NCBI GenBank assembly: GCA_902555065.1
Contig: CACDQQ010000002.1
Coordinates: 1-64,000, forward strand
Length of the DNA: 64,000 nt
DNA from: an uncultured Pelagibacteraceae bacterium
GTDB lineage: Bacteria > Pseudomonadota > Alphaproteobacteria > Pelagibacterales > Pelagibacteraceae
Direction: 5' to 3'
In this document: positions 3,111-29,545 of the stretch, in pieces
How the letters are laid out: each line of letters begins with the position of its first letter
Position numbering within the stretch: position 1 is the first letter of the stretch
Notes under the pieces: generated by a model
Seen by the model: only the letters and a program-made list of their open reading frames with translations
The model's database searches: none
What the model was told of the DNA's origin: nothing
Program-made: the position numbers and the translations under genes

Positions 3111-3164
3111 ATAAATAATTTTATTTTTTTCTATTACACTCAAAAACTATAAACTTATTTAAAT

Positions 3165-4253: not shown

Positions 4254-4294
4254 AAATTGCAATTTATATTTAAATAGAGATAAATAACAAGAAT

Positions 4295-6192: not shown

Positions 6193-6197
6193 AAACT

Positions 6198-7325
6198 ATG
6201 TATAAAATTAAAACCACACATGTTGGAAGTCTGCCAAGATCAAAAAAGCTATCTGAGATACTATTTAAAAAAGATAAAAATGAATTATTTGATCAAGTTG
6301 AACTTGATAAGATAATTGAAGAAGATGTAAACAAAATTGTAAAAAAACAAATTGATATCGGAATTGACATTATAAGTGATGGTGAAATGTCAAAAATAAG
6401 TTACGCCACCTACGTCAAGGATCGATTACATGGCTTTAGCGGTGAAAGCGAAAGAAGAGCTCCTAAAGACTTGGATGATTTTCCATCATTTAAAGAAAAA
6501 ATTGCAAAATCAGGGGGTACGCCTACTTATACAAGACCATGTTGTACTGCTGATTTAAAAATCAAAGATACTACGTCTCTTACTAAAGATATCAGTAATT
6601 TAAAATCAGCGTTAAAAAAAAATAACCACCCTCAAGGATTTATTAACTCTGCTTCACCAGGAGTAATTTCAAATTTCCTTCCAAACAAATTCTATAAAAA
6701 TGATGATGATTATTTAGAGGCATTATCAAAAATGATGAAAACTGAATACGATGAAATAACAAAGAATGATTTATTATTGCAAATTGATTGCCCAGATCTT
6801 GCGCTAGCAAGACATATGACTTTTAAAAATGTATCAGATGAAGAATTTTTGGTTAGAGCTGAAAAACAAATCGAATGTCTCAATGAAGCAATCAAAGATA
6901 TCGATGCCTCTAAATTGAGAATGCATATCTGCTGGGGAAATTATGAAGGACCACATATTCACGATATTGGATTAGAAAAAATATTACCTATTGCTTTAAA
7001 AGCAAATATCCAAACTTATTTAATTGAGGCCTCAAATCCAAGGCATGCTCATGAGTGGAAGGTTTTTGAGAACATCAAACTTCCTAATGATAAAGTAATA
7101 GTTCCTGGTGTAATAGACTCAACATCAAACTTTGTAGAGCATGAAGAGTTAGTAAAAAATAGAATAATTCAGTATTCAAAAGTAATTGATAAAAATCAAT
7201 TAATGGCTGGAAGTGATTGTGGATTTAGTACTTTTGCTGGCTTTGGAAATGTGGATGAAAATGTTGTTTACAAAAAATTTGAATCTTTGGTCGCAGGTGC
7301 AGAGCTTGCGTCAAATGCGATTTAA
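6198..7325 (+). CDS. MetE-like cobalamin-independent methyl/alkyl transferase family protein
   Basis: The 375-residue protein starts at ATG 6198, five bases after the previous stop; a reading from 6171 would overlap the upstream gene. It is the length of the C-terminal catalytic half of MetE and lacks the N-terminal half. The zinc site of that family is visible: H243 and C245 in MHICWGN, E277 in LIEASN, and C341 in GSDCGF. The N-terminal THVGSLPR motif is also diagnostic. Relatives include core MetE-type methionine synthases and the epoxyalkane:coenzyme M transferase. These enzymes activate a thiol on zinc. Lying behind NTF2-like and cupin genes, it may transfer a group to or from a small thiol rather than make methionine. 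Confidence 0.78.
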   Translation: MYKIKTTHVGSLPRSKKLSEILFKKDKNELFDQVELDKIIEEDVNKIVKKQIDIGIDIISDGEMSKISYATYVKDRLHGFSGESERRAPKDLDDFPSFKEKIAKSGGTPTYTRPCCTADLKIKDTTSLTKDISNLKSALKKNNHPQGFINSASPGVISNFLPNKFYKNDDDYLEALSKMMKTEYDEITKNDLLLQIDCPDLALARHMTFKNVSDEEFLVRAEKQIECLNEAIKDIDASKLRMHICWGNYEGPHIHDIGLEKILPIALKANIQTYLIEASNPRHAHEWKVFENIKLPNDKVIVPGVIDSTSNFVEHEELVKNRIIQYSKVIDKNQLMAGSDCGFSTFAGFGNVDENVVYKKFESLVAGAELASNAI

Positions 7326-7398: not shown

Positions 7399-8619
7399 AT
7401 GAAAAAAATATTAATATCTTTATTGTTTCTTCTTTTTGGAACTTCTACTTACGCAGATTGTAACATTAAGAGCGGATCAATAAATATTTTAGCTAATGAT
7501 TTTCCAGCTTTAAGAACTTTCGTGGAAACTGCTAAAGGATGTAAAGGAAGTGCGGATTTTAAAGTCACACACTCATCTGAGCACAATAAAATTGCTGTGC
7601 CAGCTCTAACTGCAAATCCATCAGAGTTTTCTGCAAGAATTGCAGCAAATAGCTCTATAGTTCCTTTAATGAACCAAGATTTAATTAGACCACTTGATGA
7701 TCTTGTTAAGAAATATGGAAAAGGAATACAAGACTCTCAATTGATAACAATTGATGGAAAAATAATGGCAGTTGCTTTTATGGCAAACACTCAGCATTTA
7801 TATTACAGAGAAGATGTTTTAAAAGAATTGGGTATAGCTATTCCTAAAACATATGAGGAAGTAGTTGCGGCATCAGAAAAAATAAGAGCATCAGGTAAAA
7901 TGCAATATCCTTACGCAGCAGCATACAAAGCTGGTTGGAATTTAGCAGAAGAATTCGTTAACATGTATATTGGACATGGAGGAGAATTCTTTAAAGCAGG
8001 AACTGCTCAACCAAGCATTAACAATGCAAAAGGTGTAGCAACATTAAATATGCTAAAAAAATTAGCAGGTTTAAGTAACCCAGATTATTTAACTCACGAT
8101 AGTGAAGCTATTAAAGTTGAATGGGAATCTGGAAATGTTGCATTAATGACTCTTTGGGCATCAAGATCAGGAACATTGCTTGATGATGATGGTGATGCAA
8201 AAATTACAGCTGCAACTAAATTAACTGGACCAGCAACAGTAGCTGGAGGAAACATACCAGCGGCGACTTTATGGTGGGACGGTTTCACATTAGCAAAAAA
8301 TAGATCTGACGCTGATGCTGAAGCAACATTTAGAGCTTTGGCACACGCAGCTGCTAACAAAAGGATGGTTGCTGATGCAGCAGATCAAGCTGTTTGGTTA
8401 ATTGAAGGTTTTAAACCTGGACCAAAATCAATTGGAGTTATCGAAGCTGTTAAAATGAAAGCTAAACCATATCCAATGTTACCACAAATGGGTTTAATGC
8501 ATGGTGCATTAGGAAGTGAGATTGTTGAATTTTTACAAGGTAAAGAGTCAGCAGAACAAGCTTTAAAAGATGTTGAAGCAGCTTACATGAGTAAAGCAAA
8601 AGAACAAGGCTTTCTATAA
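7399..8619 (+). CDS. Sugar ABC transporter substrate-binding protein
   Basis: The protein is 406 residues from ATG 7399, which has the SD GAGGGAAA; an upstream start would add five residues before an otherwise complete signal peptide. The N-terminus MKKILISLLFLLFGTSTYADC is a Sec signal with cleavage expected after TYA. It is a periplasmic extracellular solute-binding protein of the family-1 (maltose/glycerol-3-phosphate/polyol) type, with YREDVLKELGIAIPKTYEE and many Trp and aromatic residues. It is followed by a stem-loop at 8634-8653 and then two MalF/MalG-type permease genes, so this is the binding component of that importer. The substrate is probably a carbohydrate or polyol; it cannot be set from sequence. 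Confidence 0.88.
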   Translation: MKKILISLLFLLFGTSTYADCNIKSGSINILANDFPALRTFVETAKGCKGSADFKVTHSSEHNKIAVPALTANPSEFSARIAANSSIVPLMNQDLIRPLDDLVKKYGKGIQDSQLITIDGKIMAVAFMANTQHLYYREDVLKELGIAIPKTYEEVVAASEKIRASGKMQYPYAAAYKAGWNLAEEFVNMYIGHGGEFFKAGTAQPSINNAKGVATLNMLKKLAGLSNPDYLTHDSEAIKVEWESGNVALMTLWASRSGTLLDDDGDAKITAATKLTGPATVAGGNIPAATLWWDGFTLAKNRSDADAEATFRALAHAAANKRMVADAADQAVWLIEGFKPGPKSIGVIEAVKMKAKPYPMLPQMGLMHGALGSEIVEFLQGKESAEQALKDVEAAYMSKAKEQGFL

Positions 8620-8664: not shown

Positions 8665-9693
8665 ATGCCTAACAAAACTTTTTTTTGGTTTTTCTTGCCA
8701 ACTGGATTGGCAATGATTTTATTTATAGGTCTTCCTATTATTTCAACAGGGATACAATCATTTTATGCGCAGCACGACCAAGTTGTTAAGGAAGTAAAAA
8801 AATGTGATCCTTTTGGATGTACAGTTTCAATAGTTGTTGACCAAGAAAAAACCTCTAAAATTCGAGAAGAAAAGCCTTTAGGAAAATTCAACGGATTTGG
8901 GACTTATGTCGATAGAAATCATCTTGCAATAGAAGAAATTGGAAAATTTTGGAATGAAACTAATAGTTTTGGGGAATTTGTAGATCAAGTTACCAATCTA
9001 CCCTTTTACAAGGCTCTAATTTTTACTTTGACTTATTGTTTGTTTGTAACGCCTAACGTCTTACTTTTAGGATTTATAATTGCATTAAGTCTTAATGCAG
9101 TAACTAGAAGAATTAGAGGACCATTAATATTTGGAACCATATTGCCGATGATTGTTACTCCATTGGTAGGTTCCTTAGTTTTATTTTGGATGATAGATGC
9201 AGAAGGAATTATTGGCGCGAATTTGCAAATGTTAATGGATGATCCTTATTTATCGTTAAAATCTTCAAAAACTCTTACTTGGATAACTATAATAATATAT
9301 GGAATTTGGCACCATTCACCATTTGCTTTTGTAGTATTTTATGCAGCTTTACAAACTGTTCCCCAAGAACCTGTTGAAGCAGCTATTATTGATGGAGCAT
9401 CAAGATGGCAGAGAGTAAGACATATTGTTTTGCCTCATATTTATCCTGTAGTTACATTTGTTGCTCTCATTTCATTGATGGATAATTTTAGAGTTTTTGA
9501 GCCTATAATTGGTTTCAGTGCTGAAGGGAGCGCTCAATCTTTGTCTTGGTTAATTTATGATAACCTCGTTAATGAGGAAGTAATATTATTTGGTTCGGCC
9601 GCAGCCACCTCAATGATGACAATTGTTGGGATAGCCATACTTTTAGCGCCAGTTTTAATAAGAACATGGAAGGAATTTAGGACAGCGAGATAA
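8665..9693 (+). CDS. Sugar ABC transporter permease (MalF/UgpA-like)
   Basis: This 342-residue inner-membrane protein has about six membrane segments and a periplasmic loop after the first helix (about residues 35-105, rich in charged residues and Lys/Cys). The binding-protein-dependent permease EAA loop is present near residues 240-260 as EPVEAAIIDGASRWQRVRHIVLPHI. The next permease gene starts directly after its stop with no gap, which implies tight coupling. Together with its partner it forms the translocation pore for the upstream binding protein. No ATPase gene lies in this operon, so the energy subunit must be supplied from elsewhere. Confidence 0.88.
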   Translation: MPNKTFFWFFLPTGLAMILFIGLPIISTGIQSFYAQHDQVVKEVKKCDPFGCTVSIVVDQEKTSKIREEKPLGKFNGFGTYVDRNHLAIEEIGKFWNETNSFGEFVDQVTNLPFYKALIFTLTYCLFVTPNVLLLGFIIALSLNAVTRRIRGPLIFGTILPMIVTPLVGSLVLFWMIDAEGIIGANLQMLMDDPYLSLKSSKTLTWITIIIYGIWHHSPFAFVVFYAALQTVPQEPVEAAIIDGASRWQRVRHIVLPHIYPVVTFVALISLMDNFRVFEPIIGFSAEGSAQSLSWLIYDNLVNEEVILFGSAAATSMMTIVGIAILLAPVLIRTWKEFRTAR

Positions 9694-10575
9694 ATGGAAT
9701 ACGGACTTGATAAAAGATCAAATGCTTTAAAAATTTTTAATACAACCTTTATAGTAGTTTGGTTGTTGGTTGCATGCTTTCCCTTTATTTGGACTTTCTG
9801 GGGATCATTTAAAGTAAGAGCTGACTTTTTTTCAAGAGCTGACTGGTGGTATGCTATTACAGCATTCAATACGTTGATAGAAACTGGAGGAAAATTTACA
9901 ACAGATGCTTATAGTCAAGCATGGACTGAAGGAGAGTTTTGGAAGGCATCAAGGAATACAGTTATAGTTACATTTTTTGTTGTAACCATTTCATTGTTCC
10001 TCGGGACCTTAGGAGCTTATGCTTTATCTAGATCAACGAGAAATTATGCATTTTGGATTTTAATTGCAGCATTAATTTTTAGAGCAATGCCACATATTAC
10101 ATTAGTCTCTGGTTATTTATTTCCGTTTTTTCAATTACAAATTTGGGGAATACTACCCACGACCATTGTTGTTCTTGTTGCAATAAATCAACCATTTACC
10201 TTATGGTTATTATATTCATTTTTTAAAACTGTTCCTAAAGAACTTGATGAAAGTGCTTTAATTGATGGCTGTTCTTATTTTCAAGCATTTAGACATATCA
10301 TTATGCCAGTTATGTGGCCTGGAGTAATAACAGCTGGATTATTTAGTTTAATGCTTGCGTATAACGATTTTACAGTGACTGCTCTTTTATTGAATCAGGA
10401 AAATCATACTATGGTACCCAAAATCCAAAGTTATCTTGGAACAAATCAACATGAAGGTAATTTGATGTGGGCTGTTTCTGCAGTTGTATCAGCAACTGCT
10501 CCTTTATTTATGTTAGTTATGTTTTTCCAAAGACAAGTAATCAGTGGATTAACAGCTGGTGCTGTGAAGGGATAA
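9694..10575 (+). CDS. Sugar ABC transporter permease (MalG/UgpE-like)
   Basis: This 293-residue, six-helix permease carries the EAA motif as ELDESALIDGCSYFQAFRHIIMP, near residues 188-210. It is the second half of the heterodimeric pore with the preceding gene. The start codon follows the previous stop directly, and its own stop overlaps the HAD gene start as TAATG. This makes the HAD protein a co-translated member of the transporter operon. MalG-type C-terminal features (FFQRQVISGLTAGAVKG) are intact. Confidence 0.88.
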   Translation: MEYGLDKRSNALKIFNTTFIVVWLLVACFPFIWTFWGSFKVRADFFSRADWWYAITAFNTLIETGGKFTTDAYSQAWTEGEFWKASRNTVIVTFFVVTISLFLGTLGAYALSRSTRNYAFWILIAALIFRAMPHITLVSGYLFPFFQLQIWGILPTTIVVLVAINQPFTLWLLYSFFKTVPKELDESALIDGCSYFQAFRHIIMPVMWPGVITAGLFSLMLAYNDFTVTALLLNQENHTMVPKIQSYLGTNQHEGNLMWAVSAVVSATAPLFMLVMFFQRQVISGLTAGAVKG

Positions 10576-11234
10576 TGAGTTACAAAGCTGTTTTATTTGG
10601 TTCAATTGGAACTTTAGCTGAAACATCAGATCTTCAAAGAGATGCATTTAATGAAGCGTTTAAAATAAGTGGATTAGACTGGTTCTGGGATGAAGATATA
10701 TACAGAAAACTATTGTCAAAATCAGGTGGAACTTCAAGAATTAATGATTACGCAAAAGATACTAGTATTGAAATAGATGGAAAAAAAATAAGAAATTTAA
10801 AAACCAAAATTTTTAATGAATATTTAAACAAACACAAAGTTGAGCCTAGAGACGGTGTAAAAGAAATAATTCAATTTTGCAAAAAGAACAAAATAAAAAT
10901 TGGGCTTGCTAGTTCAACAACGAGTAACAATATCAATTCTATTTTTAACTCGTTAAGAGGAAGAATTGAAAAAAAAGATTTTGATTTTATCGGCAACAAT
11001 GAATTCATATTAAGAGAAAAACCATATCCCGATATTTATAATTATGCTTTAAAATACTTGAATATTAACTCAGAGGAATGTGTTGCAATTGAAGATACAG
11101 AAGAAAGTTTAAATTCTGCTTTAAGTGCAGATATAAAATGCATTGCGTTTCCTGGAAAATATCACACTCAATACGAATTTGATGGAAACTATTTAAAGGT
11201 TAATAAATTATCAAAAAAAATCTTTAATAAATAA
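10575..11234 (+). CDS. HAD-superfamily protein with a degenerate catalytic motif I
   Basis: This 219-residue protein has the overall plan of a beta-phosphoglucomutase/CbbY-type HAD phosphatase. Motif II is LASST, motif III lysine is in REKPYPDIY, and motif IV is IEDTEESL. Motif I, normally DxDGT, reads FGSIGTLAE: the nucleophile Asp is G9 and the acid/base Asp is I11. Phosphatase or mutase chemistry through an aspartyl-phosphate therefore looks impossible, so the protein may bind a sugar phosphate as a sensor or act by another mechanism. The start is fixed by the TAATG overlap with the permease gene; a longer frame from 10467 lies inside the permease. Its 3' end overlaps the convergent LysE-type gene by 11 bases. 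Confidence 0.8.
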   Translation: MSYKAVLFGSIGTLAETSDLQRDAFNEAFKISGLDWFWDEDIYRKLLSKSGGTSRINDYAKDTSIEIDGKKIRNLKTKIFNEYLNKHKVEPRDGVKEIIQFCKKNKIKIGLASSTTSNNINSIFNSLRGRIEKKDFDFIGNNEFILREKPYPDIYNYALKYLNINSEECVAIEDTEESLNSALSADIKCIAFPGKYHTQYEFDGNYLKVNKLSKKIFNK

Positions 11235-17969: not shown

Positions 17970-18545
17970 ATGAATGACTATTTGCAATCAATTATTGATA
18001 GGGATCCAGCAGCAAGATCAAAGCTAAGTGTAATTTTAACATACCCTGGCGTTAAGGCTGTATTTTTTCACAGAATTGCAAATTTTTTTGCTACTGCAAA
18101 ATTTGATCTTATCGCAAGAATTATTTCTCAGTTTTCCCGTTTCTTGACTGGTATTGAAATTCACCCTAAAGCAAAAATCGGAAAAAATTTATTTATTGAT
18201 CATGGTATGGGAGTTGTAATTGGAGAAACATCAGACATCGCAGACAATGTAACTATTTATCATATGGTTACTTTAGGTGGAATATCCCCTAGTATTAATT
18301 CTAATGATCAAAGAGAAGTTAAGAGACACCCTACTCTTCGTGACAATGTTGTAGTTGGTTCAGGTGCTCAAATTTTAGGGCCAGTAATAGTTGGAAAAAA
18401 TGCTAAAATTGGTGCGAATGCAGTTGTCACAAAAAATGTTCCTGAAAATGCTGTTATGGTAGGAATACCTGCTAAGAATGTTGGAACAGCAACTGAAGAA
18501 TTTAAACCTTATGCTGTAACTAATGGCAGTGAGGAAAACGAATAA
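17970..18545 (+). CDS. cysE: Serine O-acetyltransferase
   Basis: This 191-residue protein is the short EpsC/CysE form. The left-handed hexapeptide repeat region begins at [18 protein letters not shown], with the active-site His in [14 protein letters not shown] and a second in IYHMVTLGG. It makes O-acetylserine from serine and acetyl-CoA for cysteine synthesis. Its stop overlaps the cysK start as TAATG, so the two enzymes are produced together, as expected for a cysteine synthase complex. The C-terminal tail ends in EENE, not Ile; an Ile end is common where CysE docks into CysK. Confidence 0.92.
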
Positions 18546-19546
18546 TGAAAAATTACAAGGATGATTTTATCCAATCAATTGGAAATACTCCTTTAATAAA
18601 ACTAAAAGCTGCATCTGAGATAACTGGTTGTAATATTTATGGTAAAGCTGAATTTTTAAATCCAGGAGGATCTGTAAAAGACAGAGCAGCACTTGCTCTT
18701 ATAAAAGACGCTGAAGAAAAAAAATTAATATCTAAAGGCGGAATAATTGTGGAAGGTACTGCAGGAAATACTGGAATTGGATTATGTTTATTAGGAAATT
18801 CACTAGGTTACAAAACTATTATTGTAATGAACGATAATCAAACTCAAGAAAAAAAAGATACATTAAGAAATATTGGTGCAGATTTGAAATTGGTTCCACC
18901 AAAACCTTATAAAGATGAAAATAACTTTGTTAAAATTGCTGCTAGAATGGCTGAGGAGCTAAAAAGTTCAAATAATCATGGAGTTGTCTGGGCAAACCAA
19001 TTTGATAATACCGCAAACTCTAAAGGTCACTACTATACAACGGGTCCTGAGATATGGGAGCAAACGGAAGGAAAAGTTGATGGATTTGTATGTTCTTCTG
19101 GAACTGGAGGAACAATTGGTGGAGTAAGTAGTTTTTTAAAAGAAAAAAATAAAGATATAAAAATTTATCTATCAGATCCAAAGGGATCCTCTCTTTACAA
19201 TCACATTGAAAACGGCGAGTTAAAAGCTGAAGGTGGATCAATAACTGAGGGTATTGGATCCAGCAGAGTAACTGCTAATTTTGCAGAAGCAAAAATAGAT
19301 GGAGCCTTTTCAATTGAAGATAAAGAATCTTTGCCAATACTATATGATTTAATCAAAAATGAAGGTTTAAGTCTTGGAACAAGTTGTGGAGTAAATATTG
19401 CAGGTGCAATTAGATTGGGTAAAAAACTAGGCCCAGGAAAAACTATTGTCACTATTCTTTGCGACAAATCAGACAGATACAACTCAAAGATGTTTAATAA
19501 ACCTTTTTTAATTGAAAAAGGTTTACCTTATCCCGACTGGATATAA
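18545..19546 (+). CDS. cysK: Cysteine synthase A (O-acetylserine sulfhydrylase)
   Basis: This 333-residue PLP enzyme has its Schiff-base lysine at K45 in PGGSVKDRA. The substrate loop is GTAGNTGIG, the phosphate-binding loop SSGTGGTIGG and the cofactor pocket TSCGVN. It forms cysteine from O-acetylserine and sulfide. The GTAGNTGIG version, rather than TSGNTGI, marks a subgroup common in alphaproteobacteria. It is coupled to cysE by a one-base overlap and is followed by a weak terminator-like hairpin. With no sulfate-reduction genes nearby, the sulfide would have to come from reduced sulfur compounds. Confidence 0.92.
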   Translation: MKNYKDDFIQSIGNTPLIKLKAASEITGCNIYGKAEFLNPGGSVKDRAALALIKDAEEKKLISKGGIIVEGTAGNTGIGLCLLGNSLGYKTIIVMNDNQTQEKKDTLRNIGADLKLVPPKPYKDENNFVKIAARMAEELKSSNNHGVVWANQFDNTANSKGHYYTTGPEIWEQTEGKVDGFVCSSGTGGTIGGVSSFLKEKNKDIKIYLSDPKGSSLYNHIENGELKAEGGSITEGIGSSRVTANFAEAKIDGAFSIEDKESLPILYDLIKNEGLSLGTSCGVNIAGAIRLGKKLGPGKTIVTILCDKSDRYNSKMFNKPFLIEKGLPYPDWI

Positions 19547-19562
19547 TCACGCATACCAGCAC

Positions 19563-19585
19563 TGTAATAAAACCATTACATTTTT
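19563..19585 (+). terminator. Weak terminator-like hairpin after cysK
   Basis: TGTAAT and ATTACA form a 6-bp stem around AAAACC, followed directly by TTTTT. The stem is AT-rich and weak, but the stem-plus-T-run layout and its place between cysK and the small-protein operon support a transcription boundary. Confidence 0.45.
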
Positions 19586-19628
19586 AATTTAGAATAAATA
19601 AATATAATCTAATAATCAAAGGAATTTT

Positions 19629-20003
19629 ATGAACGCAAAAGAAGTAGTTAAAAAAGGATATGAACTTTTTGGCAAAGGAGATATGGAGGGATTTATGGAA
19701 ATGGTACATGATGATATCACTTGGATTTATCCTGGAGATAAGCATCCAATGTCAGGAACTCATAAAGGCAAAGAAGCATATATGAAAACCATGATGCGAG
19801 TTCCAGATCTATGGAGTAATTTTTCAGTAACCCCTGATATGATGATAAGTGAGGGGAATAAAGTGTTTGTTAAAGCAATTGCTAAGGCAGATGGCATGGA
19901 TACTATTTTTGGTCATTATTTTGAAGTAAGCGATGATGGTAAACTGACATTGTTTATTGCGTTTGACGACACATTGAGCATGTTCAATGCAATGAAAAAG
20001 TAA
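19629..20003 (+). CDS. SnoaL/NTF2-like small protein
   Basis: This 124-residue single-domain NTF2-fold protein begins the long small-protein operon; SD AAGGAA precedes the ATG. It shows the classical SnoaL-like start (VVKKGYELFGKGDMEGFMEMVHDDITWIYPG) and a later FGHYFEVSDDGKLT strand. The cavity of such proteins binds or isomerises hydrophobic small molecules. No signal peptide, so cytoplasmic. The next gene begins after 6 bases. Function unknown; it may be a non-enzymatic binding protein. Confidence 0.78.
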   Translation: MNAKEVVKKGYELFGKGDMEGFMEMVHDDITWIYPGDKHPMSGTHKGKEAYMKTMMRVPDLWSNFSVTPDMMISEGNKVFVKAIAKADGMDTIFGHYFEVSDDGKLTLFIAFDDTLSMFNAMKK

Positions 20004-20009
20004 GAGTTT

Positions 20010-20477
20010 ATGAAAAAATTATATTTTTTTTTAATTATCATATTTATGTCGAGCACAGCTTTTGCTGAACAAGGACAAATTAAACAAAACGGTTTTTTTG
20101 CAGGTACATCAAAGGTTTTAGGTGACGATAAAGGTAATTTTACAATTATCTATGATGGTATGTTGGGTTTAAAAGCATTAGATGGAACGACTTTTGGAGA
20201 TAAATCTTCAATGAGATGCGTAGGTTCAATAGTTGTTTTTGCAGGAAAAGGATATGAAAGTGGTACTTGCGTAAATAAATTTGAAGATGGTGGAACAGCA
20301 ACTTCGCAATATAAAGGTGTTTTTGGAAAAATGTTGAGATGGAAATATGTAAGTGGAACTGGAAAGTATGAAAATATATCAGGTGGTGGAACTGCGACTA
20401 TAAAAGGTATGAATTCTGCACAAGAAGGGATAGTTCATTCTTACAATGAAATTACAGGAAATTATAATTTAAACTAA
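20010..20477 (+). CDS. Secreted beta-barrel-like protein of unknown function
   Basis: The 155-residue protein has a Sec signal peptide (MKKLYFFLIIIFMSSTAFA, cleavage expected after AFA). The mature part is rich in Gly, Thr and aromatic residues in alternating beta-strand patterns. WKYVSGTGKYENISGGGTAT, near residues 111-130, is the motif seen in allene-oxide-cyclase/dirigent-like barrels. C70 and C87 could form a disulfide in the periplasm. It sits between two cytoplasmic NTF2-like genes with gaps of 6 and 8 bases. It may bind or cyclise a lipid-like compound in the periplasm; that is inference from fold resemblance. Confidence 0.65.
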   Translation: MKKLYFFLIIIFMSSTAFAEQGQIKQNGFFAGTSKVLGDDKGNFTIIYDGMLGLKALDGTTFGDKSSMRCVGSIVVFAGKGYESGTCVNKFEDGGTATSQYKGVFGKMLRWKYVSGTGKYENISGGGTATIKGMNSAQEGIVHSYNEITGNYNLN

Positions 20478-20485
20478 GGAGAAAT

Positions 20486-20815
20486 ATGTCAATTTTAGAA
20501 AAACTTAATAAATCAATTTTGGAAAAGGATGGGGCTGCAGCTGGAGAGTTAGTGCATGAAGAATATAAGATGTTTTCTCATCTTAAAGGTGAATATGTGC
20601 ATATGGGTAAAGAAGGTATGATAGAGGCTGTAAGTAAAGGAATGATGAGTCCTGTTAAACATAGAATTCTTTTTGAAAATGATGAGATAGGTTTTGATCA
20701 TTCTTATGTGACTTATCAAGATGGAAACACAGAGGCGTTAATGTGTTGTTGGAAGTTCAAAGATGGAAAAATCATCGAAGTAGAAACAGGCGCAACAAAA
20801 TTACCAAAAGAATAA
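20486..20815 (+). CDS. NTF2-like small protein, paralogue of the gene at 23124
   Basis: This 109-residue protein has SD AAGGAG before the ATG. It shares with the protein at 23124-23444 the start MSILEK, the middle ENDE(I/V)G-H-(S/A)(Y/F)VT-DGN-EA, and the end KDGK(I/M)I-ETGAT. The two are therefore duplicated copies within one operon. The fold prediction is a minimal NTF2/SnoaL-like domain. No catalytic residues stand out. Having both copies kept side by side in a streamlined genome suggests separate ligands or a heteromeric complex. Confidence 0.7.
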   Translation: MSILEKLNKSILEKDGAAAGELVHEEYKMFSHLKGEYVHMGKEGMIEAVSKGMMSPVKHRILFENDEIGFDHSYVTYQDGNTEALMCCWKFKDGKIIEVETGATKLPKE

Positions 20816-20828
20816 ATTAAGGAAGATT

Positions 20829-21185
20829 ATGAGTGGCGCAGAAACAAAAAGTTTTGATAAACCAGATCAGGAATTTAAACAATTTGACAATGCAGACATG
20901 TACCATGTGAATGTTGGTGGACAGAGGTTAGTACAAATTAAACTTCAACCAGGTTGGAAATGGTCAAAAGATGTTAAACCAAAAATAGACTCCGACGCTG
21001 CAAGTTGTCAGGCAAATCATATTGGGGTTATTGTAAAAGGAACTGTGTGTGCAAAACATGACGATGGAACAGAAATTACTTATACCGCCGGTAGCGCTTA
21101 CTCAGTTAAACCAGGTCATGATGCATGGGTAGTTGGTGATGAGCCAGTTATTGCATACGAGTTTGGTGGAGTGTGGGGCGAATAA
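20829..21185 (+). CDS. Small cupin-domain protein
   Basis: This 118-residue cytoplasmic cupin has the features LQPGWKWSKDVKP, CQANHIGVIVKGTV and PGHDAWVVGDEPV. These define a cupin subgroup in which the usual HxH motif is reduced to one His (H58 in ANHIG) and motif 2 has GHDAW. Metal binding may therefore be weak or different. Its stop overlaps the next start by one base (TAATG), so it is coupled to the small barrel protein that follows. Substrate unknown. Confidence 0.78.
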   Translation: MSGAETKSFDKPDQEFKQFDNADMYHVNVGGQRLVQIKLQPGWKWSKDVKPKIDSDAASCQANHIGVIVKGTVCAKHDDGTEITYTAGSAYSVKPGHDAWVVGDEPVIAYEFGGVWGE

Positions 21186-21454
21186 TGGTGAAGATGGTAG
21201 GTAGTTTTGAAGTAAAAGATTGGGATCACTGGAAAAAATCTTTTGATGCCCATAAAGAACCTAGGGAAGCTGCTGGTATAAAAACAGTTTATGTTGGAAA
21301 TGAAATAGATAATCCAAATAAAGTTCATATAGTCATGGAGACTCCCGCAGCAGATACAATGCAAAAATTTATGCAAGACCCAGATAATGCTAAAGTAATC
21401 GAAGAATCTGGACACAAACAAGAAACAACAATGATGAGCGTTTGCTCAGATTAA
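21185..21454 (+). CDS. Small ferredoxin-like alpha/beta-barrel protein (ABM/DUF3764-like)
   Basis: This 89-residue protein starts at the ATG overlapping the cupin stop; an earlier in-frame start at 21173 is inside the cupin gene. The pattern strand, helix (VKDWDHWKKSFDAHKE), strand, strand (PNKVHIVMETP), helix (DTMQKFMQDPDNAKVIEESG) fits the dimeric alpha/beta-barrel superfamily that includes ABM monooxygenases and EthD/DUF proteins. No catalytic residues are recognisable. It resembles the proteins at 22190 and 22508 in order of elements, though sequence identity is low. Confidence 0.62.
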   Translation: MVKMVGSFEVKDWDHWKKSFDAHKEPREAAGIKTVYVGNEIDNPNKVHIVMETPAADTMQKFMQDPDNAKVIEESGHKQETTMMSVCSD

Positions 21455-21472
21455 AACAAACTGAAAGGTAAT

Positions 21473-21760
21473 ATGAAATACTATATGGTAACTCACACGT
21501 TTAAATCTAAAGAAATGAAAAAAAAATTTAATGAAACTTTAGGCGGAATGACTAGAGAACAAATAATTGAATCATCAACAAGTGATAAGGCCAAATGTCA
21601 AATGACATACTACACTCCTGATGAGACAATGACTATGTTCTGTCATTGGATGGCTGAAAGCACCGATGCTATTAATGAGCAACTTTCTGCTATGAATGAT
21701 TTTTTTGAACCACATCAATTTACAGAGGTAAAAGAGGAAGTATTCAATTTTAATAGTTAA
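21473..21760 (+). CDS. Small uncharacterised protein, ferredoxin-like fold suspected
   Basis: This 95-residue protein has no signal peptide. The layout MKYYMVTHTFKSKEMKKKF, then a KCQMTYYTPDETMTMFCHWMAES strand pair, then a DAINEQLSAMNDFFEPHQF helix, again suggests a short beta-alpha-beta-beta-alpha-beta barrel. The Met, Cys and His-rich centre is unusual. SD AAGG lies ahead of the ATG. I do not recognise a family. Its place among similar short proteins is the only functional clue. Confidence 0.55.
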   Translation: MKYYMVTHTFKSKEMKKKFNETLGGMTREQIIESSTSDKAKCQMTYYTPDETMTMFCHWMAESTDAINEQLSAMNDFFEPHQFTEVKEEVFNFNS

Positions 21761-21777
21761 ACAATATAGGAAAATTT

Positions 21778-22176
21778 ATGAAAAAAATTATAGTCGTATT
21801 ATTCTTAAGTATCTTTACTTCAAATTGCTTTGCAGATGGTCATGTAAAGAGAATATTATCAACAAGTGAAACTGGTATGGGAAATGAAATTGTTTATCCA
21901 TCGGGTAAAGCAAAAATAACAGCTTTTGAATTTACTGTCCCTGTAGGAGCTCCAGTAAAACCTCACACACATTCCTTTCCAGTATTAATAATGATCCAAC
22001 AAGGTGAAATTGAGCTTACGATGGATGGCAAAACCAAAGTTTATAAGGCTGGTGATGCATTTGTTGAAGATGTCGGTATTGCACATGAATCTCGAAATAT
22101 AGGAAATGTGCCTGCTAAAGCAATAGTGGTTGCAATCGGTGTTGAAGGTCAGAAGATTGTAAATCCAGTTAAATAG
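21778..22176 (+). CDS. Secreted small cupin
   Basis: This 132-residue protein has a Sec signal peptide (MKKIIVVLFLSIFTSNCFA, cut expected before DGH), so this cupin acts in the periplasm, unlike the one at 20829. Motif 1 is KPHTHSFPVLIMIQQGEI, keeping HxH but lacking the usual Glu. Motif 2 is KAGDAFVEDVGIAHESRN with the last His. Three metal ligands are thus present. It may bind a small ligand or carry out a simple oxygenation. It is the second secreted member of the operon. Confidence 0.75.
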   Translation: MKKIIVVLFLSIFTSNCFADGHVKRILSTSETGMGNEIVYPSGKAKITAFEFTVPVGAPVKPHTHSFPVLIMIQQGEIELTMDGKTKVYKAGDAFVEDVGIAHESRNIGNVPAKAIVVAIGVEGQKIVNPVK

Positions 22177-22189
22177 AGAGGAAACAGAA

Positions 22190-22480
22190 ATGATAATTAA
22201 AATAGAAGAAAATATAAAATCACTTTCATCATGGATGAATATGGTAAAAGCGAATGCTGAAAAAATTAAAGGATTTGGTGCTACGATTATTTTTGCAGGT
22301 GTATCAAAAGAAGACCCTACAAAATTTACTGTAATCGTTAAGTATGCAACCATGGAAGGTTTTGAAGCATTTAAAAATGACAAAGAACTTCATGCAGCAA
22401 GAGCTGAAGCAGGCGTGGATTTAGATTCAGCAAAGGTTACGCCGATGCATGAAGATTTTATGGAAAATTTTAGTGGATAA
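22190..22480 (+). CDS. Small alpha/beta-barrel protein (ABM/DUF3764-like)
   Basis: This 96-residue protein has SD GAGGAAA ahead of the ATG. The order is strand (MIIKIEENI), helix (LSSWMNMVKANAEKIKG), strand (ATIIFAGVSKEDPTKFTVIVKY), helix (EGFEAFKNDKELHAARAEAG), strand. It matches the plan of the proteins at 21185 and 22508. Such proteins usually dimerise into a barrel with a hydrophobic pocket. No active-site residue can be named. Confidence 0.6.
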   Translation: MIIKIEENIKSLSSWMNMVKANAEKIKGFGATIIFAGVSKEDPTKFTVIVKYATMEGFEAFKNDKELHAARAEAGVDLDSAKVTPMHEDFMENFSG

Positions 22481-22507
22481 ACAATCAATATAAAGAAAGG
22501 ATAAAAT

Positions 22508-22798
22508 ATGGAAACAGAAACACTAGTAGTAGCTCATTTAAAAGAAGGTATGTTAGAAAAATTTATGGGCTTTATGCAATCAGATGCTGGTATGGCAGAA
22601 AGATCGAAAGTTGCAAATGTATCAAAAACAATTGGAACAGTTGCACCTGACAAAAAAACAGTAATGTTTAAAATTTTTGTGACCGATAAAGCTGCCCTTA
22701 AAGCTTTTATAGATGGAAGCAATCCAGTATCAGCTCCAGTTATGAAAGAAGTTATGGAAAGTTACAGTGTCTACGAATTAAATAAAGTAGATATGTAA
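22508..22798 (+). CDS. Small alpha/beta-barrel protein (ABM/DUF3764-like)
   Basis: This 96-residue protein is preceded by SD AAAGGA. It begins METETLVVAHLKEGMLEKFMGFM, followed by a KKTVMFKIFVTD strand and a KAALKAFIDGSNPVSAPVMKEV helix. It is the third protein of this shape in the operon. Three distant copies kept together suggest either a hetero-oligomer or parallel steps on related ligands. I cannot assign a reaction. Confidence 0.6.
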   Translation: METETLVVAHLKEGMLEKFMGFMQSDAGMAERSKVANVSKTIGTVAPDKKTVMFKIFVTDKAALKAFIDGSNPVSAPVMKEVMESYSVYELNKVDM

Positions 22799-22821
22799 TA
22801 ATTTTTGTAATAAGGTTTGTA

Positions 22822-23112
22822 ATGCCTTCAGGATATATCATATTAAATATTAATGTGTTAAATCCTGAAAATTACAAAGAGTATTTGGAAAAAGCTCCTC
22901 CAACTGCTCAAATGTTTGGTGGCGAATACATTATAAGAGGTGGCGAAAATGAAGTCATTGAAGGTGAGTGGAAATATCCAAGAACTGTTGTAATTAAATT
23001 CCCATCTTATGAAAAAGTTTTTGAGTGGTACAATTCCGAAATATATAAACCTATCAGACAGATTAGATTAGATAATACTGTATCAAATACATTAATAATT
23101 AAAGGAGCATAA
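22822..23112 (+). CDS. DUF1330 family protein
   Basis: This 96-residue protein matches DUF1330: GYIILNINVLNPENYKEYLEKAPPT at the start, a GGEYIIRGGENEVIEGEW centre, and VVIKFPSYEKVFEWYNSEIYKPIRQIR. The family has the same dimeric alpha/beta-barrel fold as ABM monooxygenases but no established reaction. This is the most confidently placed of the short barrel proteins here. It has a weak SD (AAGG) and an 11-base gap to the next gene. Confidence 0.85.
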   Translation: MPSGYIILNINVLNPENYKEYLEKAPPTAQMFGGEYIIRGGENEVIEGEWKYPRTVVIKFPSYEKVFEWYNSEIYKPIRQIRLDNTVSNTLIIKGA

Positions 23113-23123
23113 AGGAGAAAAAA

Positions 23124-23444
23124 ATGTCAATATTAGAAAAATATAGTGCTGCAATTAAAAATAAAGATGAAGCAGCAATGAATGAACTTTTGCATGATGA
23201 TTTTAAATTCACAATGCATAAATCAGGGAGTGTTTTAACTAAAAGTGATGTTATCAAATGGGCAATGAGTGGTGACATTAAGCAAGATAAAACTAGAATT
23301 GTTTATGAAAATGATGAAGTTGGTGTTCACCATGCGTTTGTAACATTTGATGACGGTAATGTAGAAGCAGTTATGGCAGTCTACAAATACAAAGATGGCA
23401 AAATGATTAGTTTAGAAACTGGCGCAACGCCAATGCCAAAATAA
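23124..23444 (+). CDS. NTF2-like small protein, paralogue of the gene at 20486
   Basis: This 106-residue protein has SD AAAGGAG. It aligns along its whole length with the protein at 20486-20815 (shared MSILEK start, YENDEVGVHHAFVTFDDGN centre and LETGAT end). In this copy the middle carries HH where the other has DH. The fold is NTF2/SnoaL-like. The next gene starts at the base after its stop. The role is presumably related to its paralogue but not identical. Confidence 0.7.
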   Translation: MSILEKYSAAIKNKDEAAMNELLHDDFKFTMHKSGSVLTKSDVIKWAMSGDIKQDKTRIVYENDEVGVHHAFVTFDDGNVEAVMAVYKYKDGKMISLETGATPMPK

Positions 23445-24041
23445 GTGAACAACATAGATTTTTATTTTTCTATTGGAAGTACTTATACTTATCTTTCGGT
23501 TACTCGAGCACTAGAAGCAGAAAAACAACATCAAATTAAGTTTAACTGGACACCTTTTAGTGTGAGAGCAATAATGAAAGAAATGAACAATGTTCCCTTT
23601 CCTAAAGAAAAAAAAAATAAAGTAGATTACATGTGGAGAGACATAGAAAGACGAGCAAAAAATTATGGATTTTTTGCCAAAACACCTGTTCCTTATCCTT
23701 TAACAGAATTTGATTTAGCTAATAAAATTGCAATATTAGGTTTAAAAAATAATTGGGGTGTAGATTACATTCAGCTTACGTATAAACGATGGTTTCAAGA
23801 AGGAAAAGAGCCTGCTGTTGAACCAAACTTGAGTGAAATCTGCGAAAAACTAAGCTTAGATAAAGAAAAGATTGTTTCAGAGGCAAGCTCTGAGGAAGTT
23901 AATAATATTTATTTATCAAATACAGAAAAGGCTAGAAAAAATAAAATATTTGGAAGTCCGTCATTTATTGTAAAAAATGAAATATTCTGGGGAGATGATA
24001 GAATGGAAGATGCAATCAAATGGTCGAAGGCAAATGAATAA
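23445..24041 (+). CDS. 2-hydroxychromene-2-carboxylate isomerase/DsbA-family protein
   Basis: This 198-residue kappa-class GST/DsbA-fold protein begins at a GTG directly after the previous stop. The family start FYFSIGSTYTYLSV contains the active Ser region (S11 or near), there is no CxxC, and the C-terminal signature IFGSPSFIVKNEIFWGDDRMED is typical. HCCA isomerases use glutathione to isomerise an aromatic ring-cleavage product. This is the only clear enzyme in the twelve-gene run, so it points to an aromatic or polyketide-like substrate for the set. It overlaps the first SMR gene by 8 bases. Confidence 0.82.
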   Translation: MNNIDFYFSIGSTYTYLSVTRALEAEKQHQIKFNWTPFSVRAIMKEMNNVPFPKEKKNKVDYMWRDIERRAKNYGFFAKTPVPYPLTEFDLANKIAILGLKNNWGVDYIQLTYKRWFQEGKEPAVEPNLSEICEKLSLDKEKIVSEASSEEVNNIYLSNTEKARKNKIFGSPSFIVKNEIFWGDDRMEDAIKWSKANE

Positions 24042-24369
24042 TATAACTGCTTATATAATTTTATTAATCGCAGTAATTCTTGGAACAGCTTCAAATAGTT
24101 TTGCTAAAAGTGCTCAAGGTTTTACATTATTAATACCTAGCATAATCACAGCAGTAACAATTGTTGGATGCATGTATACTTTGTCTTTAGTTATGAAAAG
24201 TATACCAGTTGGAATAACATATGCCTCTTTTGCAGGCTTATGTATAATTGCAACAGCTGCCGTTGGTGTTATAAAATTTAATCAAGTACCAAATTTTTAT
24301 ACAATAATTGGATTGATTTTAATTATCTCGGGTGTCTTAATAGTTAACTTATTAGGAACAAATAAGTGA
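24034..24369 (+). CDS. SMR-family small multidrug transporter subunit 1
   Basis: This 111-residue protein has four membrane helices. The true start is the ATG at 24034, overlapping the isomerase gene by 8 bases; an earlier frame start is inside that gene. SMR features are the helix-1 AVILGTASNSFAKSAQGF (position of the membrane Glu of EmrE taken by other residues) and PVGITYASFAG. Its stop overlaps the next SMR gene as GTGA. Two adjacent, different SMR genes typically give a heterodimer (EbrAB or MdtIJ type) exporting cations, polyamines or small amides. Confidence 0.8.
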   Translation: MNNITAYIILLIAVILGTASNSFAKSAQGFTLLIPSIITAVTIVGCMYTLSLVMKSIPVGITYASFAGLCIIATAAVGVIKFNQVPNFYTIIGLILIISGVLIVNLLGTNK

Positions 24370-24701
24370 AACCGTTATCTGGTTACATTTATTTAGTATT
24401 AGCTATATCAACAGGAATAGCTGCAAATAGTTTTGCTAAAATTTCAGATGGATTTTCAAAATTAACTCCAACGATATTATCAATAGCTTTTATGTGTATA
24501 ACTATGTATGGACTTGCAAAAGCTATGTCTATGATACCAGTAGGTTTTACTTATGCCACTTATAGTGGGATAACAGTGGCTGCTATTTTAGTCTTCGGTA
24601 TGATTAAATATAACCAGATACCAAATATGTATGGGTTAATTGGGATTTTTTTAATTATTATTGGTGTTGTAATGGTTAATTATCTTGGAAGAATTAATTA
24701 G
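24366..24701 (+). CDS. SMR-family small multidrug transporter subunit 2
   Basis: This 111-residue, four-helix protein starts at GTG 24366, four bases before its partner's stop ends. Like subunit 1 it lacks the canonical helix-1 Glu14 of EmrE (it has STGIAANSFAKISDGF) but keeps PVGFTYATYSGI. Both subunits share NSFAK-(S/I)-GF, so they form a related pair. The absent Glu suggests a coupling mechanism different from EmrE, or a role other than drug/H+ exchange. The 3' end overlaps the convergent EamA gene by four bases. Confidence 0.8.
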   Translation: MKPLSGYIYLVLAISTGIAANSFAKISDGFSKLTPTILSIAFMCITMYGLAKAMSMIPVGFTYATYSGITVAAILVFGMIKYNQIPNMYGLIGIFLIIIGVVMVNYLGRIN

Positions 24702-28448: not shown

Positions 28449-29324
28449 ATGTTTTCAAAAATAAAATCAAAAGATAAAGCAGAACAACTAAGACAATTAT
28501 TAAATGGACCAGAAATAATTGTAATGCCTGGATGCTTTGATGCATTATCAGCAAAATTAATTGAAAGAGAAGGTTTGAAAGTTGGTTTTATGTCTGGCTT
28601 CAGTGTTTCATCAACAAAACTTGGTATGCCGGACACGGGTCTGATTTCCTTTTCTGAAATGGCAGATCAAGTAAGAAATATATGCAATGCAACATCAATT
28701 CCAATAATATTTGATGGGGATACTGGATATGGAAATTCAGTGAACGTATTTAGAACTGTAAGAGGATATGCGGATGCAGGAGCAGCTGGTGTGATGATTG
28801 AAGACCAAAAGTGGCCAAAAAAATGTGGTCACACAAAGGGCAAAGATGTTGTCGATCTTGATGAGGCAAACTCAAGAATTAAAGCTGCGGTGGATGCAAG
28901 AGAATATGGAAATAAAGATATCTTAATAATGGCAAGAACTGATGCCATAGCAACTAGAGGATTAGATGATGCAATTAAAAGAATGCAATCATTTTCAAAA
29001 CTTGGTGTTGATATTTTATTTATTGAAGCTGTTAAAAATAAAGAAGATATGAAAAGAATTATCAAAGAAGTTCCAGGTCATCATATGTTAAATTTGATCG
29101 AAGATGGTGAAACCCCATTATTAGAAATTAATGAAATAGAGGAAATTGGTTATAAAATTGCTGTAATGCCTCTAACCCTAATGAGTGCATCAGTAAAAAC
29201 GATGCAAGAATGTTTGAATAATATGAAAAATAAAGTTTATAATAAAAATGTTTCTAAATTTTCAGACTTAAGAGATATAGTTGGCTTCAACGAATATTAC
29301 GATATTGAAGACAAATATAAATAA
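28449..29324 (+). CDS. Isocitrate lyase/PEP mutase-superfamily lyase
   Basis: This 291-residue protein is of the PEP mutase/2-methylisocitrate lyase group. Metal and substrate residues are visible in FDGDTGYGNS (D89, D91) and MIEDQ (E118). The catalytic loop WPKKCGHTKGK carries C126, which distinguishes true C-C lyases from the phosphonate mutases. It would cleave a 2-hydroxy (alkyl) di- or tricarboxylate to succinate- or propionate-type products plus a keto acid. Candidates include 2-methylisocitrate or 2,3-dimethylmalate lyase; sequence alone does not decide. It is in the TRAP operon, so its substrate may be related to the imported acid. Confidence 0.85.
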   Translation: MFSKIKSKDKAEQLRQLLNGPEIIVMPGCFDALSAKLIEREGLKVGFMSGFSVSSTKLGMPDTGLISFSEMADQVRNICNATSIPIIFDGDTGYGNSVNVFRTVRGYADAGAAGVMIEDQKWPKKCGHTKGKDVVDLDEANSRIKAAVDAREYGNKDILIMARTDAIATRGLDDAIKRMQSFSKLGVDILFIEAVKNKEDMKRIIKEVPGHHMLNLIEDGETPLLEINEIEEIGYKIAVMPLTLMSASVKTMQECLNNMKNKVYNKNVSKFSDLRDIVGFNEYYDIEDKYK

Positions 29325-29545
29325 TGTTTCCAAAAAAATTTTCTAAAATTCTTTTCGTTTTTTTTATGGGTTTAGGAATGAGTTTGTTAATGACCCTAAT
29401 TATTACATTTATAAATACAGGTTATGATGAATTTTATTATAAAAGATTTTTCAAAGCTTGGTCTATTAGTTTGCCAGTTGCATTAGTTGCAACGACTTTT
29501 GTTGCACCATTGGTTAATAAATTAGTTGAAAAAATTACTAAATAG
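29324..29545 (+). CDS. DUF2798 small membrane protein
   Basis: This 73-residue protein has two helices: LFVFFMGLGMSLLMTLIITFI and a second around RFFKAWSISLPVALVATTFVAPLV. The second pattern is the DUF2798 signature. No function is known for the family. Its ATG overlaps the lyase stop as TAATG, so it belongs to the TRAP operon. It may assist membrane assembly or transport, but nothing in the sequence proves it. Confidence 0.8.
   Translation: MFPKKFSKILFVFFMGLGMSLLMTLIITFINTGYDEFYYKRFFKAWSISLPVALVATTFVAPLVNKLVEKITK

Follow-up and report, generated by a model that had tools for sequence, protein, structure and literature searches.

What kind of genetic system is a tight row of twelve genes for small proteins, lodged between a cysteine synthase gene (cysK) and a pair of small multidrug resistance (SMR) transporter genes in a SAR11 bacterium? 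The row in question lies in the first 64,000 nucleotides (herein referred to as the window) of contig CACDQQ010000002.1 (assembly GCA_902555065.1), from an uncultured Pelagibacteraceae bacterium whose 1.2 Mb genome (G000) is 82% complete. An earlier reading of this DNA from its letters alone (the sequence-only reading) had described twelve same-strand genes for small, single-domain proteins, separated by 0–27 bases and followed by an SMR pair, a description that the open reading frames (ORFs) confirm: twelve ORFs run on the + strand from 19629 to 24041 with gaps of 0–27 bases, all twelve products are small and single-domain, and two overlapping SMR genes then reach 24701. The same reading had proposed that these genes serve a single dedicated pathway for modifying a small molecule, with the SMR pair as its exporter. 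Comparison with related genomes gives a different answer. The site is fixed, a short leader behind cysK is fixed in one of two groups of arrays, and the gene set and gene order change. This architecture and its modularity we consider close to certain; that the locus is an operon of modular build, variable between strains, whose genes come from a guild of about 20 protein families and which is rebuilt gene by gene, is the account that we favor with moderate confidence.

The comparison rests on a family sample of 197 genomes that includes 51 of one genus, labeled genus g1 (a genus label, separate from the array genes g1–g12; f5, f6 and similar labels denote protein families, and f31, f109, f120, and f141 are codes of taxonomic families). 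Forty-eight stretches were taken from 47 genus g1 genomes (G017 contributed two; G146, G164, G178, and G196 were left out), genes were called with a codon-usage script that misses some membrane genes, and the proteins were clustered; the roughly 20 protein families that recur in these arrays constitute the guild. In genus g1, the array usually sits directly behind cysE–cysK and before the SMR genes, with exceptions that include a displaced array (L048), loci with other genes in between (L069 and L164), and one with reversed SMR genes (L159). Gene order was compared in the 43 loci that have a downstream marker (excluding L037, which starts inside the array and lacks cysK, and L046, L048, L166, and L175, which end before the marker). 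These loci hold 36 different guild-gene orders (35 when f8 and orientation are disregarded) and from 0 to 13 guild genes each, the site being empty or reduced to one guild gene in L158 and L163 (L158 is empty apart from SMR). The g11/g3 family is the commonest member (38 of 43 loci), followed by g9 (29), f5 (27), f6 (25), g6 (24), g10 and f8 (22 each), and g12 (18). Several recurrent families are absent from the window array, among them f5 (a secreted-looking protein of about 124 amino acids), f6 (a small membrane-like protein), f14 (GYD-like, below the cut-off), f20, f37 (cupredoxin), f47 (g2-like, 32% identical to g2), f54 (TPR), and f8 (DUF2798).

Guild genes are strongly concentrated at this site: 325 matches fall in 205 kb of genus g1 arrays, whereas the 522 kb flanking 42 genus g1 loci contain 19 (nine f14, five f8, four f37, and one f54). 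The rest of the 64 kb window contains a single guild-profile match outside the array, and the array is hence not a product of chance. Across the 197 genomes, g9 occurs in 65 (38 of the 77 good ones), g11 in 85, and cysK (at E 1e-60) in 125. Seven genus g2 assemblies (G001, G061, G077, G081, G091, G107, and G145) have a g11 match that begins no more than 25 bases from a contig end, as if assembly were breaking at a variable array.

Content differs even among close relatives of the window. From 299 named loci we took the best 80, of which 55 carry g9 at an identity of at least 90%; these were scored by tblastn for window genes only, 51 extending from cysK as far as the SMR side and 4 being incomplete. 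All twelve genes are present in 13 of the 51, and 20 have g1–g2–g7–g8–g9 onward (21 with L084, whose g12 match is split); the remaining loci start with g7–g8 (5), g1–g7–g8 (4), g2–g3 (2), g9 (2) or g7–g9 (2), or have a form found once (2). The variable part adjoins the leader, where g1–g8 are gained or lost as whole genes, and the stretch from g9 through the second SMR gene hardly changes (in L128, g12 and the first SMR gene are not detectable). Compared in 60-base steps, the window and L036 are 90–100% identical in DNA over g1 and the start of g2 and 62–82% over the remainder of g2; L036 lacks g3–g6 of the window, and identity is then 73–88% in g7, 83% at the g7/g8 junction and 92–100% from 22221 on, which is the pattern of a replaced block. 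The corresponding DNA alignments of L039, L094, and L120 are unreliable at their 5' ends and served for the conserved 3' part only.

Directly 3' of the cysK stop codon lies a 34-base leader, CGCATACCAGCACTGTAATAAAACCATTACATTT, which is kept while the first gene behind it changes, that place being held by g1, g7, g9, g2 and, in many genus g1 genomes, f5. A scan allowing up to three mismatches found it in 27 of the 197 family genomes, once in each and all in genus g1, and a reversed-pattern control found none. Scored with a weight matrix (trained on 13 of the 25 scored sequences), 25 sites in the fetched loci reach 29.9–63.6, whereas random AT-rich sequence (2 Mb) peaks at 3.7. Among the 80 named loci, 72 include cysK (8 do not); 49 of these score above 25 bits and 5 at 21–23, and in the 49 the first gene is g1 in 39, g7 in three, g2 in three, g9 in two, and another gene in two. 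The leader contains a dyad that exists as TGTAAT-N6-ATTACA or TGTAAC-N6-GTTACA (summarized as TGTAAY-N6-RTTACA). Nineteen of the 25 distinct leaders could be parsed and 14 have perfect dyads, seven of each type, a paired base change that fits an operator or a hairpin. Dyad matches with up to two mismatches number 12 in the window, no more than the 12.0 expected, and the one at 19563 is the sole exact match. In G017 (L048), leader and displaced array stand behind an ORF whose last 50 or so codons are those of cysK (cysK fragment and leader at 8750–8960), and an intact cysK elsewhere in that genome (L175) has no array, indicating that part of cysK travelled with the unit. Where the leader is present, its role as the single regulated leader of the array is probable; it would be a regulated promoter whose dyad binds a regulator.

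The guild families gather at other places as well. In genus g4, the genes f5–g10–g9–g6–f6–f111–f14 are clustered but not behind cysK (L065, L068, L073), with a look-alike of the leader, GCATACCTGTAATAAA or a close variant, upstream (by eye). In other SAR11 genera, g9 sits with f6, f5 or g11, and across SAR11 genera other than g1, 11 of the 12 g9 loci have a guild neighbor within 3 kb, L041 being the exception. Class-wide, g9 was found in four of 337 genomes (G000, G017, and two of family f31) and g11, at 1e-10, in 10 of 337. The two f31 genomes encode g9–g4–(f20)–g11 contiguously on one strand. These genes are 55–73% identical to those of genus g1; the remaining genus g1 matches in these stretches are at 24–33%, and the neighbors match SAR11 locus L041 at 44–57%, one of them at 78–80%. 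In L201:7420–9822 (G226), g9–g4–f20–g11 and one further ORF lie between a tmRNA (9509–9822) and a tRNA-Phe gene (7420–7495). A second set in G453 (f31), with two g1 copies at 67–69%, flanks both sides of a tRNA-Ala gene in L224 (8694–8769). Family f109 (G496, 47% GC) brings together GYD (f14), ABM, DUF3764 (g5), cupin (g4), SCO4226-like (g6), and DUF1330 (g10) genes in about 2.4 kb, headed by a gene for a DUF3303 protein; by eye, the cupin frame appears interrupted by a stop. At this locus (L232), a DUF6538/phage-integrase tyrosine recombinase (9726–10892) adjoins the guild array, an 80-nt inverted repeat (98%) lies at 9321–9400 and 10870–10949 and a 103-nt direct repeat (97%) at 6319 and 9009, an HxlR regulator stands at a divergent start, and Rfam has no match in L232; it is possibly a mobile form of the array. 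Family f141 (G356) has g8-, g10-, g11-, and f14-like genes, and family f120 (G315) has g10 and g11, with g1 6 kb off.

Of 14 seed loci outside the family, seven have at least one more guild gene no farther than about 3 kb away. A control of 172 kb in 11 cysK-chosen SAR11 loci yielded one guild match (L180 and L181, with four and two matches, respectively, were excluded, their placement having been chosen to include g11 matches). DUF3764 is itself rare, occurring in 6 of 318 genomes (5 above the cut-off) and in none of 14 control genomes. A record titled as a Flavobacteriaceae metagenome-assembled genome (L139), which has g9 at 66% identity among SAR11 records, is probably a misbinned contig. 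As the same families gather in other combinations and places in other SAR11 genera and, in part, in four other alphaproteobacterial family codes, they belong together; this colocation in several lineages, at different chromosomal places, is the check that the sequence-only reading had itself put forward.

Single members have also been transferred between genera. A g9 tree of 46 rows rejects monophyly of genus g1 (approximately unbiased test, p 4.6e-46, for a group chosen after the pattern had been seen), and two types of g9 occupy the same genus g1 site, one comprising 12 genus g1 rows with three genus g4 copies, six genus g3 copies, and the f31 pair, the other 20 genus g1 rows with one copy each from genera g3, g13, and g14. 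Between genera g4 and g1, identity is 91–93% for g9, 83–86% for g6, and 89% for one f5, versus mostly 66–75% for the flanking genes (exceptions are one f28 at 88% and f62 at 41%); the other array members are at 69–73% (g10), 59% (f6), 47% (f14, one at 81%), and 47–51% (other f5). Tree and identities together indicate that single genes move between genera. In a search of viral contigs for g9 and g11, the two guild genes covered, 53 and 41 stretches matched short patterns and none encoded a relative; on plasmids, where g11 was the guild gene searched, none was found. The median ratio of nonsynonymous to synonymous substitution rates (dN/dS) is below 1 in every array family measured (range 0.05–0.55; pairs with moderate dS), although these values are rough because some clusters (g11/g3, f14) pool paralogs: g4 0.05, g8 and f20 0.07, g12 0.09, g5 and g7 0.10, g6 0.12, g11/g3 0.16, g10 0.23, g1 0.27, f6 0.28, f47 0.29, and g9 0.36, with cysK at 0.09.

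In the account that we favor, single-domain genes would stand in a row downstream of cysK and its conserved leader, and horizontal transfer together with homologous recombination among array haplotypes would rebuild the array. A regulator would bind the dyad and the leader would coexpress the array, whose members would act as independent modules, each with its own ligand, the useful subset differing by strain. Several results weigh against this account. Eighteen of the 72 named loci with cysK are leader-negative, and a second array group, with f6 reversed behind cysK, lacks this leader and has a different divergent region. No sigma-70-like pair was called inside the leader, the nearest downstream + strand call starting at 19588, and promoter-like calls in the region number 41 versus a shuffle mean of 34.7 (sd 6.9). 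The leader RNA hairpin is weak in the window (−3.8 kcal/mol, z −1.4; elsewhere −13.5, z −3.7 in L067, where the fold includes cysK sequence, and −7.3, z −1.1 in L165), so that an operator and a weak terminator are not separable. Identity correlates with that of cysK at 0.85 for g12, 0.75 for g4, and 0.69 for g6, the other array families giving 0.09–0.38 and cysE, at 0.28, serving as a poor control. By median dN/dS, g2 (0.49), f5 (0.52, maximum 1.16), and f14 (0.55) are fast families. Outside genus g1, an SMR gene lies about 1 kb from guild genes on the opposite strand (L180, genus g3), and for seven of the 14 seed loci from outside the family (L216, L218, L220–L222, L233, and L234) the surrounding 3 kb or so contain no second guild gene.

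These seven solitary loci would equally suit a passive insertion hot spot, in which the cysK–SMR interval is a tolerated landing place and unrelated small accessory genes share an operon but not a function. The highly variable content, the empty and one-gene sites (L158 and L163), and the collection of unknown genes in SAR11 hypervariable regions (HVRs), as described in passages of PMC2217521, fit this alternative. A mere landing place is nevertheless harder to reconcile with the recurrence of the same few families, which have guild neighbors at 11 of 12 g9 loci in other genera and at half of the outside seed loci, with the low background in genus g1 flanks, in the rest of the window and in the cysK-chosen loci, and with genes that are mostly on one strand, tightly spaced and have dN/dS medians below 1; we regard it as unlikely.

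The dedicated pathway of the sequence-only reading, whose product the SMR pair would export, is more doubtful still. Its folds would suit small-molecule work, and tblastn detects SMR genes in 41 of the 42 genus g1 stretches besides the window, 27 with two genes and 14 with one, L170 being the exception. As a fixed pathway, however, it is largely refuted: no fixed gene set exists, and the variation in content and order across the 43 loci and among close relatives led us to reject a fixed twelve-gene pathway. Its export step is not supported either. SMR genes persist at sites with no guild genes or almost none (L158, L163) and, outside genus g1, occur in one of 31 loci tested (0 of 14, then 1 of 17), so that they look like a flank; SMR as a required part was rejected on these grounds, and the pair is better described as a stable neighbor that may add efflux. 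The sole SMR gene among the 31 loci is that of L180, where f6, g11, f8, and f54 lie close together (2632–6749), 7–11 kb from cysK. Paired SMR exporters include EbrAB, YkkCD, and MdtIJ, and the window resembles them in its two adjacent, overlapping SMR genes, whose function is predicted: the first, from ATG 24034, overlaps g12 by 8 bases (a longer ORF form starts at 23977) and is overlapped by the second (24366) by 4 bases. Rfam gives no match at gathering score in the window, and hence no guanidine riboswitch.

If the array is modular, what would its modules do? The AlphaFold model of g9 (11 alignment rows; pLDDT 95) has a dimeric alpha+beta barrel fold, for which Foldseek returns 2bbe as best match (1.6e-4), then LsrG, and SnoaB at 2e-3, with TM-scores mostly of 0.5–0.65. 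For g2 (5 alignment rows), the best model reaches a pLDDT of 82 (52–82 across five models) and matches dirigent proteins, the Diels-Alderase PloI4, and the allene-oxide cyclase (AOC) barrel (best E 3.4e-5, TM about 0.5); neither g9 nor g2 exceeds 19% identity to the listed solved structures. Solved relatives found by sequence are 2fiu and 3lo3 for g10 and, marginally, 2r4i for g11 (E 0.07), with none for g4, g5, g6, and g9, the proteins that complete the set searched. Invariant His, Asn, Asp, and Glu positions in g11 would suit a catalytic NTF2 pocket, and most members to which a family or fold can be given belong to kinds that take small organic molecules as ligands or substrates, as is established for the ABM, SnoaL/NTF2, cupin, and dirigent/AOC folds; others are membrane or secreted-looking proteins. 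The folds thus suggest small-molecule chemistry, the role claimed by the sequence-only reading; families (Pfam) and folds (Foldseek) agree with that role, which stays an inference from folds. The oxygenase- or isomerase-type barrels, NTF2-type isomerases or cyclases, and cupins would bind, isomerize or oxidize small compounds in seawater, with a periplasmic dirigent-like barrel and a GST-kappa/DsbA-like enzyme in the same role; the ligands are perhaps aromatic or reactive, and the subset in each strain would suit local chemistry rather than a fixed biosynthetic line. We tentatively entertain the view of a combinatorial array, a guild shuffled without an integron across oceanic alphaproteobacteria to give each strain of a streamlined genus its own chemical tool kit under one regulated leader; that these tools would detoxify or exploit aromatics, quinones or aldehydes from plankton is a best guess, held more tentatively still. 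A defense or competition island (antiphage or toxin immunity), with diversity kept by phages or rivals, would explain the fast turnover of composition among close relatives, which defense and surface islands share, and the several secreted-looking members, but it is very improbable given that PADLOC models match none of 10 proteins at E 0.01 (a set without g5, g7, and g10) and that the array proteins searched contain no above-cut-off Pfam nuclease, kinase or toxin domain; PHROGs, searched with 10 proteins, gave weak matches only, for g6 and f6.

The features of the window are listed below. The Pfam matches of g3, g4, g6, and g8 do not reach the curated cut-off, and no Pfam family matched g2 or g9. 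Several assignments of the sequence-only reading stand and others soften. The DUF1330 protein is g10; of three proposed NTF2-like proteins, g1 and g11 are supported by Pfam and g3 matches the DUF4440/SnoaL_2 family only weakly (2.4e-3). Of the two cupins, the secreted one (g7) is borne out by its Pfam match and a signal-peptide-like N-terminus (by eye), whereas the cytoplasmic one (g4) is a weak match. Among the barrels, g9 is ABM-type and g2 dirigent/AOC-type by model, g5 is a DUF3764 protein, and g6 and g8 remain below the cut-off. The upper end of the proposed size range (89–198 residues) holds, the smallest protein having 88–93 amino acids depending on whether g5 starts at GTG 21188 or at GTG 21173, which overlaps g4; the leader is an addition to the feature. 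The enzyme g12 is DsbA/HCCA-isomerase-like, the isomerase name being that of the sequence-only reading; Pfam itself gives DSBA. The same genome has a second copy of the DUF1330 gene g10 in L002 (G000:C5, 1495–1785), and a DUF2798-type relative of f8, an array member in many other strains, lies outside the array at 29324–29545 of the window.

Table 1. Features of the cysK–array–SMR locus, in window coordinates.
Feature	Coordinates	Strand	Evidence or remark
cysK (cysteine synthase)	18545..19546	+	Conserved upstream flank; precedes array in most genus g1 stretches
Leader CGCATACCAGCACTGTAATAAAACCATTACATTT	19550..19583	+	Candidate promoter/operator
Dyad TGTAAT-N6-ATTACA	19563..19580	unassigned	Within leader
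g1, NTF2-like SnoaL_2 protein, 124 aa	19629..20003	+	Pfam SnoaL_2 9.5e-12
g2, dirigent/allene-oxide-cyclase-type beta barrel, 155 aa	20010..20477	+	Secreted by eye; fold predicted by model
g3, NTF2-like, 109 aa, g11 paralog (47% identity)	20486..20815	+	Pfam weak
g4, cupin-like, no signal peptide, 118 aa	20829..21185	+	Weak Cupin_2 5.6e-3
g5, DUF3764, 88–93 aa, start uncertain	21188..21454	+	Pfam 6.1e-12
g6, SCO4226-like, 95 aa	21473..21760	+	Pfam 3.1e-4, below cut-off
g7, cupin, 132 aa, secreted by eye	21778..22176	+	Cupin_2 2.8e-14
g8, DUF3764/ABM-like, 96 aa	22190..22480	+	DUF3764 just below cut-off
g9, dimeric alpha+beta-barrel-like, 96 aa	22508..22798	+	No Pfam family; fold predicted by model
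g10, DUF1330, 96 aa	22822..23112	+	Pfam 4e-29
g11, NTF2-like, 106 aa	23124..23444	+	DUF4440/SnoaL_2 1.9e-7
g12, DsbA/HCCA-isomerase-like, 198 aa	23445..24041	+	Pfam DSBA 6.7e-26
First SMR subunit	24034..24369	+	Multi_Drug_Res; conserved downstream flank
Second SMR subunit	24366..24701	+	Multi_Drug_Res; conserved downstream flank

Where does such an array belong among known systems? Passages of PMC12421898 and PMC2217521 present SAR11 as the extreme case of a streamlined genome and place the majority of its unique genes in the surface-related HVR2. Like the flexible islands of this group (HVR1–4 and replacement islands), the array has fixed flanks, content that differs between close relatives, and exchange by homologous recombination, as seen from identity breaks in one pair (the window and L036) and from the g9 tree. 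Unlike them, it contains no cell-surface, lipopolysaccharide, pilin or phosphorus genes, Pfam assigning its members to neither exposed structures nor nutrient uptake, and it is one operon of single-domain genes with one leader. Integron arrays are similar in being rows of small genes with a constant leader, strain-specific content, and a variable leader-proximal end; in contrast, the array gaps of 0–27 bases leave no room for attC sites, no shared intergenic repeat beyond paralog similarity was found among the 20 largest of 33 repeat families, and none of the 20 proteins at 17.2–27.2 kb of the window is a tyrosine integrase (the L232 array has one adjoining). Polyketide- and aromatic-tailoring enzymes (ABM, SnoaL, dirigent, AOC) share the folds of g9 and g2 and the families of g1, g3, and g11, and no polyketide synthase, nonribosomal peptide synthetase, terpene synthase or other scaffold enzyme is among the same 20 window proteins. 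The array is not described in the available passages of PMC2217521, PMC5069961, PMC7318151, PMC7542561, PMC12421898, and PMC10734472, among them passages on HVR1–4, SAR11 ecogenomics, Arctic SAR11, and HIMB59 islands; the main text of PMC2217521 (2007) contains none of the terms "cysK," "cysteine synthase," "multidrug," and "cupin," and literature on the array families in connection with SAR11 held nothing relevant among the matches listed. Flexible islands and HVRs are known in SAR11, but the cassette-like build seen here is unusual.

If our account is true, the array would constitute a further axis of SAR11 diversity, an operon of 0–13 genes that differs gene by gene among close relatives. 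It would point to chemical interactions with plankton rather than to phage escape or nutrient uptake, and it would provide a biological setting for the little-understood DUF3764, DUF1330, SCO4226-like, GYD, and DUF4440 families.

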